DNA from: an uncultured Bacilli bacterium
Lineage (GTDB): Bacteria; Bacillota_I; Bacilli_A; RF39; UBA660
Assembly: GCA_944359015.1 (NCBI GenBank)
Contig: CALVSK010000004.1
Span: 1 to 38,473, forward strand
Reading direction: 5' to 3'
DNA length: 38,473 nucleotides
This document shows, in pieces, positions 31,917-35,984 of this stretch (the stretch's first letter is position 1; every line of letters begins with the position of its first letter). A program made the translations under genes and the position numbers. The notes beneath the pieces were generated by a model. The model did no database searches. It saw only the letters and a program-made list of their open reading frames with translations, and had not been told where the DNA came from.

Positions 31917-32720
31917 ATGAAAGTATATTTAGATTTAGTTTTTATATTAAATTTTTGCTATGATTTATTATTAATGATGACTGTAGATATTACCCTTAAA
32001 AGACATAAAAAATTTTTTAGGTTATTGATAAGTGCTTTTGTTGGGGCAATATCTTTGGGCATATTATTTTTGCCTTTAAATAATGCTTTATTATTTTTAA
32101 TCAAAATTTTAACAAGTATTGTCATGATTTTAATTGCATTTGGATATAAAAATGTTAAGTATTTTACAACTAATATGATTTACTTATATATGTGTAGCAT
32201 AATACTCGGAGGTTTTTTATATTTTTTGAACATTGAGTTTAGTTATAAACAAGATGGATTAGTATTTTTCTTTGATGGTTTTAGTATAAATTATGTAATA
32301 CTTTTAATATTAGGTCCAATAATATTATATATTTATATAAAAGAACATAAAAAATTTAAGAGTACATATAATTATAATTATCTAGTAAATATAGTTTTTA
32401 AAGATGGAAAAGAATTAAGATGTAATGGTTTTTTGGATACGGGAAATAAATTGAAAGATCCAATAACTAATAAATATGTAATTTTAGTATCTAAAAAAAT
32501 ATTGGTACCTTATGTAAATATAAGAAGTCCAATATATGTACCATATAAAGTAGTGGGGAATAAAGGTTTAATAAGTTGTTATAGTATAAAATATATAAAA
32601 GTAAATGAACAAATATTTAAAAATTATTTAGTTGGTTTAATACCAGATAAAATTAATATAAATGGTAGTGATTGTTTACTTAATTATAAATTAATGGAGG
32701 ATTTATGTTTAGAAAAATAA
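31917..32720 (+). CDS. spoIIGA: Sporulation sigma-E factor-processing peptidase SpoIIGA
   Basis: SpoIIGA is a membrane aspartyl protease that cuts the pro-sequence from sigma-E in the mother cell. The 267-residue protein has five membrane segments in the N-terminal half. A cytoplasmic domain follows with the catalytic aspartate D174 in FLDTGNKL, and later VPYKVVG and GSDCLLNYKL motifs of the family. Its 3' end overlaps the sigE start by 16 bases, the usual spoIIG arrangement that couples protease and substrate. A short leader carrying AAGTGA precedes it. Confidence 0.93.
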   Translation: MKVYLDLVFILNFCYDLLLMMTVDITLKRHKKFFRLLISAFVGAISLGILFLPLNNALLFLIKILTSIVMILIAFGYKNVKYFTTNMIYLYMCSIILGGFLYFLNIEFSYKQDGLVFFFDGFSINYVILLILGPIILYIYIKEHKKFKSTYNYNYLVNIVFKDGKELRCNGFLDTGNKLKDPITNKYVILVSKKILVPYVNIRSPIYVPYKVVGNKGLISCYSIKYIKVNEQIFKNYLVGLIPDKININGSDCLLNYKLMEDLCLEK

Positions 32721-33385
32721 TTGAATATTTAAAAAGTAAATATAATGAAGTATTTTTTGTCGGAGCAACTGATAAGTTACCACCACCACTTAGTAAAGAA
32801 GAAGAATTAGCATATTTAATTAGGGCTCAAAACAATGATATTGAGGCAAGAAATATTTTGATAGAACATAATTTAAGATTGGTAGTGTTCTTAGCTAAAA
32901 AATATGAAAATACAACTTATGATATTGAAGATTTAGTAAGCATTGGTTCGATAGGATTAATAAAAGGGATTAATACTTATAAAATAGATAAGAATATAAA
33001 ATTGGCAACTTATGCATCAAGATGTATAAGTAATGAAATACTAATGTTTTTAAGAAAAAATAAAAGAAAGAAAACTGAAGTATCTTTAGAAGAAGCACTA
33101 AATTATGATAGTGAAGGAAATGAGTTGCATCTAGAAGATATATTGGGAACTGATGCAGAATTGGTACCAAAAGAATATGAAAGAAAAGTTGATAAAGAAA
33201 TATTAAATGAAGAAATAAAATCTCTTAGTAAAAGAGATAGAGAAATAATGACTCTTAGATATGGTTTAAATAATACTTTGGAGTATACCCAAAAAGAAGT
33301 TGCAGAAATGTTAGGAATCAGTCAATCATATATTTCTAGAATAGAAAAAAAAGTGGTAAAAAAGTTAAAACAATTAATGCATTAA
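32705..33385 (+). CDS. sigE: RNA polymerase sigma-E (mother-cell sporulation sigma factor)
   Basis: The 226-residue protein matches sigma-E throughout: LPPPLSKEEE, NLRLVVFLAKKYENT, IEDLVSIGSIGLIKGINTY, ATYASRCISNEILM and the region 4.2 helix-turn-helix with ISQSYISRIEK. The pro-sequence removed by SpoIIGA is short. Alignment of NEVFFVGATDKLPPP with the Bacillus DEVYYIGGSEALPPP leaves about 16 residues (MFRKIIEYLKSKYNEV) against about 27 in B. subtilis, but it is still amphipathic. GGAGG inside the end of spoIIGA drives translation. Its stop codon interlocks with that of the convergent XRE gene in a shared TTAA. Confidence 0.95.
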   Translation: MFRKIIEYLKSKYNEVFFVGATDKLPPPLSKEEELAYLIRAQNNDIEARNILIEHNLRLVVFLAKKYENTTYDIEDLVSIGSIGLIKGINTYKIDKNIKLATYASRCISNEILMFLRKNKRKKTEVSLEEALNYDSEGNELHLEDILGTDAELVPKEYERKVDKEILNEEIKSLSKRDREIMTLRYGLNNTLEYTQKEVAEMLGISQSYISRIEKKVVKKLKQLMH

Positions 33386-33816
33386 TCTTTTTTACCAATT
33401 AATAAATCCATAGAACTATTATATTTTTTAGCAATAGCATATAAAAAATCAGTTTTAATTAATACTTTTCCTGTTTCGTAAGCAGAATAAGTTGAACTTG
33501 TAGTATTAAGGGGTAAAAATATATCTTTTTGAACTAAGTTATTTTGTTTTCTTAATATTTTTAAATTTTTTCCTACGTTTTTAGGATTTATATTATCTAC
33601 TTTATAATTATTTTTAGAATTATTACTTAGACCTGTTGCATAATCGATACTTACATTGTAAAAATTACATAATTTGTTTAGTTTTTGAAGGGGAATGGAG
33701 TCTTTTCCTGTTTCCCATCCTGAAAAAGTGCTACGATGAACTTTCATAATTTTTGCGACATCTGCTTGAGTAAGTTCAAGTGATTCACGTATATCTCTAA
33801 GTCTATCTAATTTCAT
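33382..33816 (-). CDS. Tandem XRE-type transcriptional regulator (two HTH domains)
   Basis: The 144-residue protein contains two Cro/C1-type helix-turn-helix domains. The first spans about residues 5-62 (LTQADVAKIMKVHRSTFSGWETGKD) and the second about 82-141 (LRKQNNLVQKDIF, SSTYSAYETGK). No sensor or oligomerisation domain is visible. It faces away from the unknown gene at 33918 across a 101-base region full of inverted repeats, so autoregulation and control of that gene are likely. It lies between sigE and sigG, which are normally adjacent. A decayed paralogue is at 26175-26600. Confidence 0.88.
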   Translation of the reverse strand: MKLDRLRDIRESLELTQADVAKIMKVHRSTFSGWETGKDSIPLQKLNKLCNFYNVSIDYATGLSNNSKNNYKVDNINPKNVGKNLKILRKQNNLVQKDIFLPLNTTSSTYSAYETGKVLIKTDFLYAIAKKYNSSMDLLIGKKD

Positions 33817-33831
33817 TTAATCACCAAAATA

Positions 33832-33895
33832 ATTTTCTCATTATTACTAGTATTTTCTAGAATGTGTGGGAAAATACGAGAAAATGTGATATGAT
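33832..33895 (+). promoter_or_regulatory. Operator/promoter between the XRE gene and its divergent neighbour
   Basis: Two perfect 8-bp inverted repeats are nested: ATTTTCTC (33832-33839) with GAGAAAAT (33878-33885), and GTATTTTC (33850-33857) with GAAAATAC (33870-33877). The palindrome TTCTAGAA lies at 33855-33862. GGGAAAATA (33868-33876) overlaps the -35 position of an extended -10 TGATATGAT (33887-33895). These look like binding sites for the tandem-HTH protein. Confidence 0.65.
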
Positions 33896-33917
33896 AATTT
33901 AAAGGAAGGTTAACATT

Positions 33918-34424
33918 ATGATAACTATTACAAATAATATAGAAAAAATTAAAATTAGTAATAAAGAGTTAGAAAAATACGATAATTATTATAAAGGCTT
34001 AAAAATAGAAGTTAAAAACGACTATTTTTTGATTGAGTTAATTATATTAAAAGAAAATGAAGACATCAGTGAAATTATAAAAATAAGAAAAAATGGCGAG
34101 GAAATATTAGATAGATTCAAAAATCGGGGTAGTGCTAAAAATACAATTGTTTTAAGTAATTATGATTTTAATAAATTTAAAAATTTATATAATAATATGC
34201 AAATAAAAAATAATTTAAGAAAAGAAATGATAATAAATATATATTCTGAAATGTTAAGTTATGAATATTATCAAACTTATTTAATTGAAGATACAAAAGA
34301 TATAATATTAGAAGATATATTAAATTATGAACTTCCTAATTATTATGCTCATGAAGAATATAAAAAAGAAATAATAAAAGAAAGCAAAAAGAAAATAAAA
34401 GATAAGTATGGCATAAATGAATAA
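33918..34424 (+). CDS. Unknown protein, partner of the XRE module
   Basis: The 168-residue product is hydrophilic, rich in Lys/Glu/Ile/Asn, and without signal or membrane segments. The N-terminal half alternates beta-like strands (LKIEVKNDYFLIELIIL) and the C-terminal half is helical with many Tyr and Glu. I recognise no family. AGGAAGG is the ribosome binding site. The promoter overlaps the presumed XRE operator, so it is probably repressed by that protein. Its transcript would run into the hairpin at 34428-34468 in front of sigG. It might be accessory cargo, since it separates sigE and sigG. Confidence 0.7.
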   Translation: MITITNNIEKIKISNKELEKYDNYYKGLKIEVKNDYFLIELIILKENEDISEIIKIRKNGEEILDRFKNRGSAKNTIVLSNYDFNKFKNLYNNMQIKNNLRKEMIINIYSEMLSYEYYQTYLIEDTKDIILEDILNYELPNYYAHEEYKKEIIKESKKKIKDKYGINE

Positions 34425-34448
34425 ATTAGTATCCTTTTAAACAAAATA
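34419..34448 (+). promoter_or_regulatory. Candidate sigma-G-type promoter inside the sigG hairpin
   Basis: GAATA at 34419-34423 fits the sigma-G -35 (GHATR). CAAAATA at 34442-34448 fits the -10 (CATnHTA) except at one base, with an 18-base spacer. A start near 34455 would omit the 5' arm and leave the ribosome binding site free. In AT-rich DNA such matches can occur by chance. Confidence 0.4.
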
Positions 34449-34468
34449 AAGTTTGAAAGGATATTTTT
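34428..34468 (+). terminator. Hairpin containing the sigG ribosome binding site
   Basis: Bases 34428-34442 pair with 34451-34465 (15 pairs, two of them G-U) around an eight-base loop, with a T run ending directly before the ATG. The 3' arm contains GAAAGGA, the sigG ribosome binding site. It would terminate the upstream gene and block sigG translation on read-through RNA. Confidence 0.82.
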
Positions 34469-35245
34469 ATGGCTAAGTATAAAGTAGATATTACTGGATT
34501 AAATACGAGTAATATAAAAGTATTGACAAATGAAGAAATGACCCATTTGTTTGTTAGATTGAAAAATGGCGATGTTACTGCTAAAGAAGAATTAATTAAT
34601 GGTAATTTAAAGTTAGTACTAAGTATATTGCGAAGTTTTAATAAGAACAATATTAATTTAGATGACCTTTTTCAAGTTGGAGTTATTGGATTAATTAAAG
34701 CAATTGATAATTTTGATTTATCTTATGGATTAAAATTAAGTACTTATGCTGTTCCTCTTATAATTGGTGAAATAAAAAGATATATAAGAGATAATACTGC
34801 AATGCGAGTTAGTAGAAGTATAAAGGATTTAGCATATCAAATAATAAAATTTAAAGATGAATATGTTTTAATGCATGGTTGTGAACCTAGCAATGCTTTA
34901 GTTGCTAATAGTTTAGGAATTGAAGAATATCAAATTGCATATGCATTAGATGCTTTGAAAGATCCAACTAGTATATTTGAGCCAATTTATAATGATGGGG
35001 GAGATACAATATTTTTGTGTGACCAAATAGCAGATGTAAAAGAGAAAAATAGTGATAAGGATATGTTAATCTCTTTAAGAAGAGCTTTGCAAAAAATAAA
35101 AGAGCGAGAAAAACAAATATTATTACAAAGATTTATTGTGGGAAAAACTCAAATGGAAATAGCTAAAAATTTAAATATTAGTCAAGCTCAAGTATCTAGA
35201 ATAGAAAAAAGTGCTATAAGTAATATAAGAAAATTAATAAAGTAA
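34469..35245 (+). CDS. sigG: RNA polymerase sigma-G (late forespore sigma factor)
   Basis: The 258-residue protein matches sigma-G along its length. The distinctive N-terminus KVDITGLNTSNIKVLTNEEM is followed by LFQVGVIGLIKAIDNFDL, STYAVPLIIGEIKRYIRDN, VSRSIKDLAY, FEPIYNDGGDTIF and the region 4.2 motif ISQAQVSRIEKSAI. Sigma-G runs the last forespore programme. In most sporulators it directly follows sigE; here two extra genes intervene. Its ribosome binding site lies in the 3' arm of a terminator-like hairpin, so expression from upstream read-through should be poor. Confidence 0.95.
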   Translation: MAKYKVDITGLNTSNIKVLTNEEMTHLFVRLKNGDVTAKEELINGNLKLVLSILRSFNKNNINLDDLFQVGVIGLIKAIDNFDLSYGLKLSTYAVPLIIGEIKRYIRDNTAMRVSRSIKDLAYQIIKFKDEYVLMHGCEPSNALVANSLGIEEYQIAYALDALKDPTSIFEPIYNDGGDTIFLCDQIADVKEKNSDKDMLISLRRALQKIKEREKQILLQRFIVGKTQMEIAKNLNISQAQVSRIEKSAISNIRKLIK

Positions 35246-35250
35246 AATCA

Positions 35251-35256
35251 TATAAT
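35251..35256 (+). promoter_or_regulatory. -10 element before ylmC
   Basis: TATAAT at 35251-35256 predicts a start near 35263, on top of GGTGAT (35262-35267), giving a leader of about eight bases. No convincing -35 is seen. Confidence 0.35.
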
Positions 35257-35270
35257 TTATTGGTGATAAA

Positions 35271-35492
35271 ATGTATTTAAGTGAACTTCAAAATAAAGAT
35301 ATAATTAGCGTAAAAACGGGGATGAATTTGGGGAGAATAGTAGATGTTGAAGTAAATAATGAAGGAAAAGTATTGAGTTTTATAGCGGAACAAAAAAAAT
35401 TTTTTAGAAAGGTTTTAAAAAATAGTGAAATAACATTTACTTTTAGTGATATTGCTAAAATAGGTACTGATGTAATACTGGTAAATAAATAA
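35271..35492 (+). CDS. ylmC: YlmC/YmxH family PRC-barrel sporulation protein
   Basis: The 73-residue protein is a single PRC-barrel-like domain with the family pattern LSELQNKDIISVKTGMNLGRIVDVEVN and a late FSDIAKIGTDVILV. In Bacillus ylmC lies downstream of sigG, as here (with ylmA between), and the related ymxH is sporulation-associated; the molecular role is unknown. GGTGAT is three bases before the ATG. Confidence 0.85.
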   Translation: MYLSELQNKDIISVKTGMNLGRIVDVEVNNEGKVLSFIAEQKKFFRKVLKNSEITFTFSDIAKIGTDVILVNK

Positions 35493-35498
35493 AAAATA

Positions 35499-35507
35499 TG
35501 ATATATT
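35499..35507 (+). promoter_or_regulatory. Extended -10 placing the lspA start on the ATG
   Basis: TGATATATT at 35499-35507 predicts transcription from about 35513-35515, coinciding with the lspA ATG at 35514. No ribosome binding site is present between them. Confidence 0.45.
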
Positions 35508-35513
35508 ATTCAT

Positions 35514-35984
35514 ATGAGGAAAAAAAGTATAATTATAGGAACATTTTTATTAATAATTGATCAATTAGTAAAAATATTAGTTGATAGTACACTAAGGTAT
35601 GGGGTAATAAAACCTATTATTCCTAATTTTTTTTATTTAACTAAAGTATATAATAATGGTGCTGCTTGGAGTATGTTTGATGGCTCTGTAATGGTTTTAA
35701 TAATTATTGCTTTATTATCTTTGGTATGTTTAATATATTATCAAAAATATTTTAAAAATAATTATTTAACAATAATGACTTTTAGTTTTGTGTATGGGGG
35801 TTTATTAGGTAACTTAGTTGATAGACTTATGTATGGTCATGTAATAGATTATTTTAAATTGGTATTTGGTAATTATAGTTTTCCTATTTTTAATTTAGCA
35901 GATATATTTATAGTGTGTGGTTTTATAATATTAATATACAAGGTAATAAAAGGTGAAGATAAAAATGCAGATATTAATAAATGA
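35514..35984 (+). CDS. lspA: Lipoprotein signal peptidase (SPase II)
   Basis: LspA cleaves the signal peptide of prolipoproteins within the membrane. The 156-residue protein has four membrane segments and both catalytic regions: YNNGAAWSMF, the GNLVDR and HVIDYF aspartate region, and FNLADIFI with the second aspartate. It ends in TGA, rare in this window. No ribosome binding site precedes the ATG, and the promoter position suggests leaderless translation; read-through from ylmC is the alternative. rluD starts within its 3' end, an order also found in Bacillus (lspA-ylyB). Confidence 0.94.
   Translation: MRKKSIIIGTFLLIIDQLVKILVDSTLRYGVIKPIIPNFFYLTKVYNNGAAWSMFDGSVMVLIIIALLSLVCLIYYQKYFKNNYLTIMTFSFVYGGLLGNLVDRLMYGHVIDYFKLVFGNYSFPIFNLADIFIVCGFIILIYKVIKGEDKNADINK

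Follow-up and report, generated by a model that had tools for sequence, protein, structure and literature searches.

A predicted start-site-dependent translation gate in the sigG leader of an uncultured Bacilli bacterium and its relatives

The sigG locus and the hairpin over its start

The window, by which we mean the whole 38,473-nucleotide stretch of DNA analysed from an uncultured Bacilli bacterium, carries the sporulation genes spoIIGA, sigE, and sigG (Table 1). It also carries ftsA and ftsZ and, 3' of sigG, a YlmC/YmxH-like ORF followed by lspA (names by reading alone). The source assembly amounts to 1 Mb. The records closest to the source are metagenome-assembled "uncultured Bacilli" genomes, and some of those of more distant relatives are labelled goat gut or wild mice. 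Two genes occupy the interval between sigE and sigG, so that spoIIGA-sigE is not the direct neighbour of sigG as it is in Bacillus subtilis. The second of them, the ORF directly upstream of sigG, is the likely source of read-through RNA into sigG.

Table 1. Positions of the genes and leader elements discussed in the text. Positions are those of the window unless a genome and contig are given.
Feature	Positions	Strand	Basis or remark
spoIIGA	31917-32720		upstream of sigE
sigE	32705..33385	+	NCBIfam SigE best match, 3.4e-95, below cut-off
Double-HTH Cro/C1-type gene	33382-33816	-	between sigE and sigG
ORF, 168 aa, without family match	33918..34424	+	same strand, upstream of sigG
-35 element GAATA, within TGAATAAA, sigma-F/G-type promoter	34419..34423	+	TGNATAAA conserved across 186 sigG upstream regions
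5' arm (anti-Shine-Dalgarno)	34428..34442	+	fold; spacer shuffles; arm-swap test
-10 element CAAAATA	34442..34448	+	CANNAT at spacing 18 in 173/186
Loop	34443..34450	+	fold
3' arm, includes ribosome site	34451..34465	+	fold
Predicted RNA start, embedded promoter	34454..34456	+	T of CANNAT set to -7 gives 34454; purine at 34455
Shine-Dalgarno GAAAGGA, inside 3' arm	34455..34461	+	sequence; accessibility
T run, Shine-Dalgarno to ATG	34464..34468	+	partly paired; poor terminator tail
sigG (RNA polymerase sporulation sigma factor SigG), 258 aa	34469..35245	+	NCBIfam SigG models best, 7.8e-102, below curated cut-off
spoIIID hairpin (L241; relatives L296-L325)	G000:C7:3216-3461	-	AAGGGG covered
yqzL, upstream of recO (L229; relatives L326-L347)	G000:C3:17006-17035	-	sigG-type promoter, hairpin TTCACC...GGTGAA

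The RNA of positions 34419-34471 was predicted to fold with 15 pairs at -17.3 kcal/mol (all energies are model values at 37°C). The two arms pair exactly as the original prediction had drawn them, and its placing of GAAAGGA in the 3' arm and of the sigG ATG (34469) behind a T run was confirmed. None of 200 dinucleotide shuffles matched the native fold of this segment taken alone (z = -6.7), and longer flanks lowered the significance (z = -3.2 and -3.9). The stem can be extended by five A-U pairs, up to 34470.

The promoter elements that had been read around the hairpin, GAATA and CAAAATA, are spaced by exactly 18 bases. The -10 element is not wholly in the loop as had been proposed, since C34442 is still paired, at the end of the 5' arm, and AAAATA lies in the loop. 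From -35 to -10 (34419-34448) the promoter spans the 5' arm, an arrangement of the T4 gene e type, in which the promoter falls within the 5' strand of the hairpin. Taken alone, the pattern is weak evidence and near chance in the window: GNATA-N18-CANNATA has one match against 0.73 expected by chance, and the tighter TGNATAAA-N16-CANNAT has one against 0.20 expected. The promoter is convincing because it is conserved in relatives. Either sigma-F or sigma-G could use it, and the motif does not tell the two apart.

Promoter, pairing, and accessibility among relatives

The comparison set held 186 distinct sigG upstream regions, 149 from near relatives (at least 55% SigG identity) and 37 from distant ones (below 55%); these loci share descent, which limits the comparison. 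TGNATAAA-N16-CANNAT is nearly invariant across the 186 regions, with a spacing of 18 in 173. Among near relatives the G, A, T, and A of the -35 element are each 95-100% conserved, and likewise the C, A, and fifth-position A of the -10 element; the promoter search scored towards its consensus and these percentages are therefore somewhat inflated, although the motif is nevertheless visible by eye. Measured from the predicted RNA start, the start codon follows at a median of 15 bases and AAGG at 1-4 bases (5th-95th percentile), which would place the Shine-Dalgarno sequence at the extreme 5' end of the RNA made from sigG's own promoter.

The neighbourhood of sigG varies more. In 34 of the 37 distant relatives sigE stands immediately 5' of sigG and is thus the usual neighbour in the class. 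In most near relatives sigG is no longer directly behind sigE, and the gate is kept nonetheless. In the window the insertion between sigE and sigG comprises the HTH gene and the family-less ORF, other genes are found there in most near relatives, and the interval seems prone to insertion. Adjacency to spoIIGA-sigE is context, and the mechanism does not require it.

Pairing across the promoter was examined in three ways. When only the spacer was shuffled, 72% of the near relatives folded better than 95% of their shuffles. In an alignment-free arm-swap test, the 5' side of each locus was folded with its own 3' side or replaced by 5' sides from distant loci. The median energies were -11.5 (native) versus -7.4 kcal/mol (swapped) in near relatives and -14.1 versus -7.7 kcal/mol in distant ones, and native arms beat swapped arms over all loci (p = 7e-25). 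A helix of at least 8 pairs across the -10/start region was predicted in 157 of 185 loci. Outside the ribosome site, several columns switch between C-G, A-T, T-A, and G-C pairs from locus to locus, and G-U accounts for 12% of the helix pairs; these pair types were taken from predicted folds and serve as illustration, not proof. One distant family has TCCACC and GGAGGTGGA as its arms, flanking CATATAA. The leaders of two relatives (L161 and L162) share a near-identical GGAAATTCCTCAGAATG...GGAGGAAG, with another layout and little predicted gate.

The pairing itself has been solved in more than one way. The start codon region (ATTATGGC) is the partner of the -10 element (typically GCCATAAT) in 23 near relatives, where this pairing replaces or accompanies that of spacer and ribosome site. 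The 5' partner still lies upstream of the predicted start, so that the logic is unchanged, and the stem is followed by coding sequence with no terminator-like T run. The computed gate is small in some of these 23 loci. Such turnover of the pairing, with the logic held constant, speaks more strongly than anything else for start-site gating and against a terminator or a DNA operator.

The accessibility of the sigG start was expressed as the energy cost of opening the stretch from the ribosome site up to and including the start codon, in RNA beginning 110 bases upstream or at the predicted start. For sigG of the window, the cost was 16.3 kcal/mol in the read-through RNA and 2.3 kcal/mol in the predicted own-promoter RNA, in which the 5' arm is absent and the hairpin cannot form (fold z = 0.1). 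As described for B. subtilis, the hairpin stands directly before a sigG orthologue, and its folding is predicted to hide the ribosome site in RNA from upstream. The median costs were 12.8 versus 2.3 kcal/mol for loci of at least 70% identity, 12.4 versus 0.9 for 55-70%, and 13.0 versus 4.1 below 55%, and the difference exceeded 5 kcal/mol in 94%, 85%, and 78% of the loci, respectively. For the 149 near relatives overall, the medians were about 12.5 versus about 1-2 kcal/mol, with a difference above 5 in about 90%; eleven showed little or no gate. As controls, 311 ORFs from the same loci exceeded 5 kcal/mol in 15%, and none reached sigG of the window, which ranks 5th by this difference among the 791 gene starts scored in about 0.9 Mb of the same genome. 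The original prediction had named one pattern in relatives as speaking against it, namely the lack of both paired arms and a promoter-like element in the loop. That pattern was absent, with the promoter almost universal and about 90% of the near relatives gated.

The proposed gate and its alternatives

We propose, with a probability of about 0.8, that the sigG leader acts as a translation gate that depends on the RNA start site. RNA running from the upstream gene into sigG would carry both arms, the 5' arm would cover the Shine-Dalgarno sequence, and the start would go unused. RNA from the embedded sigma-F/G-type promoter would begin at the 3' arm and lack the 5' arm, leaving the Shine-Dalgarno sequence free at its 5' end. 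SigG synthesis would then be confined to the forespore, where its own promoter fires, regardless of the neighbouring gene. The computations show the structure, the conservation of the promoter, the matching of the arms, the difference in accessibility, and the dependence on the upstream strand; we infer the actual 5' end, the occurrence of read-through, and the effect on protein. That such a switch would be a conserved principle, as originally suggested, is supported by the conservation of the promoter and by the predicted accessibility in relatives.

A gate that silences read-through is expected to relax with an opposite-strand gene upstream, and it does so. The median gate difference was 5.8 with an opposite-strand upstream gene (n = 13) and 10.6 with a same-strand one (n = 130; Mann-Whitney p = 1.6e-5), and when opposite-strand loci were paired with their nearest same-strand relative on the SigG tree the gate was weaker in 10 of 12; the comparison uses heuristic ORF calls and 12-13 loci. 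This effect is suggestive and would fit a block on read-through. Further points go against the gate, as do the eleven near relatives with little or none. In the window, about 6 bases are all that separate the upstream stop codon (34422-34424) from the anti-Shine-Dalgarno, and the stop is similarly near the 5' arm in about 19% of near relatives; a ribosome terminating there could open the hairpin. Also, a Shine-Dalgarno sequence at the extreme 5' end might translate poorly.

The hairpin could instead serve chiefly to end the RNA of the upstream gene, as an intrinsic terminator whose stem and T run stop read-through just before sigG. We judge this unlikely, though it is the best of the alternatives. 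At least four T stand between the Shine-Dalgarno sequence and the start codon in 100 of the 149 near relatives, and hairpins are stronger in that group (median difference 11.7). Against this, a terminator scan of 33300-35700 called no intrinsic terminator-like site. The stem has few G-C pairs where a terminator has a GC-rich one, and the T run, which should be unpaired, is largely paired or pairable in the window. The loci with -10/start-codon pairing have coding sequence, not T, behind the stem. The original prediction had the read-through RNA either terminated or folded with the site hidden. The folds support the hiding, and termination is not needed, as 49 near relatives have no T run and 73% of those gate.

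It is improbable, and more so than termination, that the hairpin works inside the own-promoter RNA, either damping it constitutively or sensing a ligand or temperature. The B. subtilis PsigG transcript does have a 5-bp damping hairpin (PMC5942855), but in the predicted own-promoter RNA here the 5' arm is missing and the start stays accessible, and no Rfam leader family matched by covariance model up to E = 1 in 33000-35600. Least probable of all is a DNA operator, a regulator-bound dyad over the promoter with the RNA hairpin as a by-product: the dyad does overlap the -10 and start region, a frequent operator position, but arm sequences turn over widely while the pairing, with its G-U pairs, is kept, the arms shift position with respect to the promoter or give way to -10/start-codon pairing, and beyond promoter and ribosome site no operator-like sequence was seen to be shared among the relatives' leaders.

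If the leader is such a translation gate, what was proposed for one locus in B. subtilis becomes a testable rule, with pairing kept across a wide range of spore formers while the sequence turns over, and with a weaker gate where the same-strand upstream gene is missing. It would also show a route to tight gene packing that keeps silent a sigma factor harmful to growing cells.

Similar predicted gates and known systems

By the difference in accessibility between read-through and own-start RNA, spoIIID (Pfam SpoIIID, 1.3e-27) is at the top of the 791 genes of the same genome. Its hairpin has a TATAAT-like -10 element in the loop region, possibly a sigma-E-type, mother-cell promoter. A structure hiding the start was predicted in all 30 relatives examined, whose arms vary little and therefore give weak covariation. 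In 30 of 30 genomes spoIIID is directly preceded on its own strand by an M23 peptidase gene, SpoIIQ-like by position. Since B. subtilis makes SpoIIQ in the forespore, the spoIIID gate could stop a mother-cell regulator from being made from forespore read-through. The gate at yqzL, whose start-hiding hairpin recurs in many relatives, is weaker than that of sigG (median difference 5.4, 19 genomes). Promoter-in-hairpin gates may thus recur in the lineage (sigG, spoIIID, and yqzL) and insulate compartment-specific sporulation genes from read-through, with the one at spoIIID guarding against forespore read-through; we hold this tentatively, at a little under even odds. If true, the place where the RNA starts, beyond the presence of the RNA, would determine which cell makes the protein. 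As spoIIID suggests, RNA start sites may also help separate the forespore and mother-cell programmes.

A scan of the genome for the sigG-type promoter gave 8 matches versus 4 for the reversed pattern, a modest excess. Such a promoter also stands at a sensible distance before a spoIIR-like gene (G000:C7:10663-10692, L232, minus strand) and before a clp-like gene (L234/L235), both named by reading. The clp-like gene has identical copies on contigs C14 and C29, by duplication or assembly overlap.

Fold-back inhibition in IS10 follows a similar principle. Translational control of another sporulation regulator is found in B. subtilis, where translation of spoIIID requires usd (PMC4474612). There an upstream ORF must be translated, whereas in the relatives studied spoIIID is preceded by a hairpin with a promoter in its loop and, as its direct neighbour, by the M23 peptidase gene. 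In phage T4, the long early RNA of gene e (lysozyme) forms an inhibitory structure and the late RNA without the 5' strand is translated well; similar late-promoter hairpins are known for soc, 49, and I-TevI (PMC3014915, PMC2988022). Gene e is alike in that the ribosome site is hidden in the long RNA and the short RNA begins inside the 5'-strand region. It differs in that these are phage genes with T4 late promoters and no homology, and the effect there is experimental (about 100-fold), whereas here it is predicted.

The nearest system is sigG (spoIIIG) of B. subtilis itself, where a hairpin of 20 or more bp was proposed to prevent the translation of RNA reading through from PspoIIG, the promoter of the spoIIGA-sigE operon (PMC5942855; attributed there to refs 9, 52). 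The inhibitory leader hairpin that the original prediction ascribed to B. subtilis sigG is thus described there. The large hairpin cannot form in PsigG RNA, which has a separate 5-bp hairpin that dampens 2-4-fold and a Shine-Dalgarno core at +19 to +23 (PMC5942855). Both systems have the same gene, a proposed block on read-through, and a hairpin that is impossible in the own-promoter RNA. By the published description, they differ in the stem (20 or more pairs there, 15 here) and in the upstream gene (spoIIGA-sigE there, an unrelated gene here). The Shine-Dalgarno core also lies further from the start in B. subtilis than AAGG does here, and no inner 5-bp hairpin is evident here. Since the principle has already been described for B. 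subtilis sigG and T4 gene e, the kind is known and the sigG leader here would be a further member. A comparative case was not found in the literature searched; what is new is the breadth across relatives, the very short leader, and the similar predicted gates at spoIIID and yqzL.
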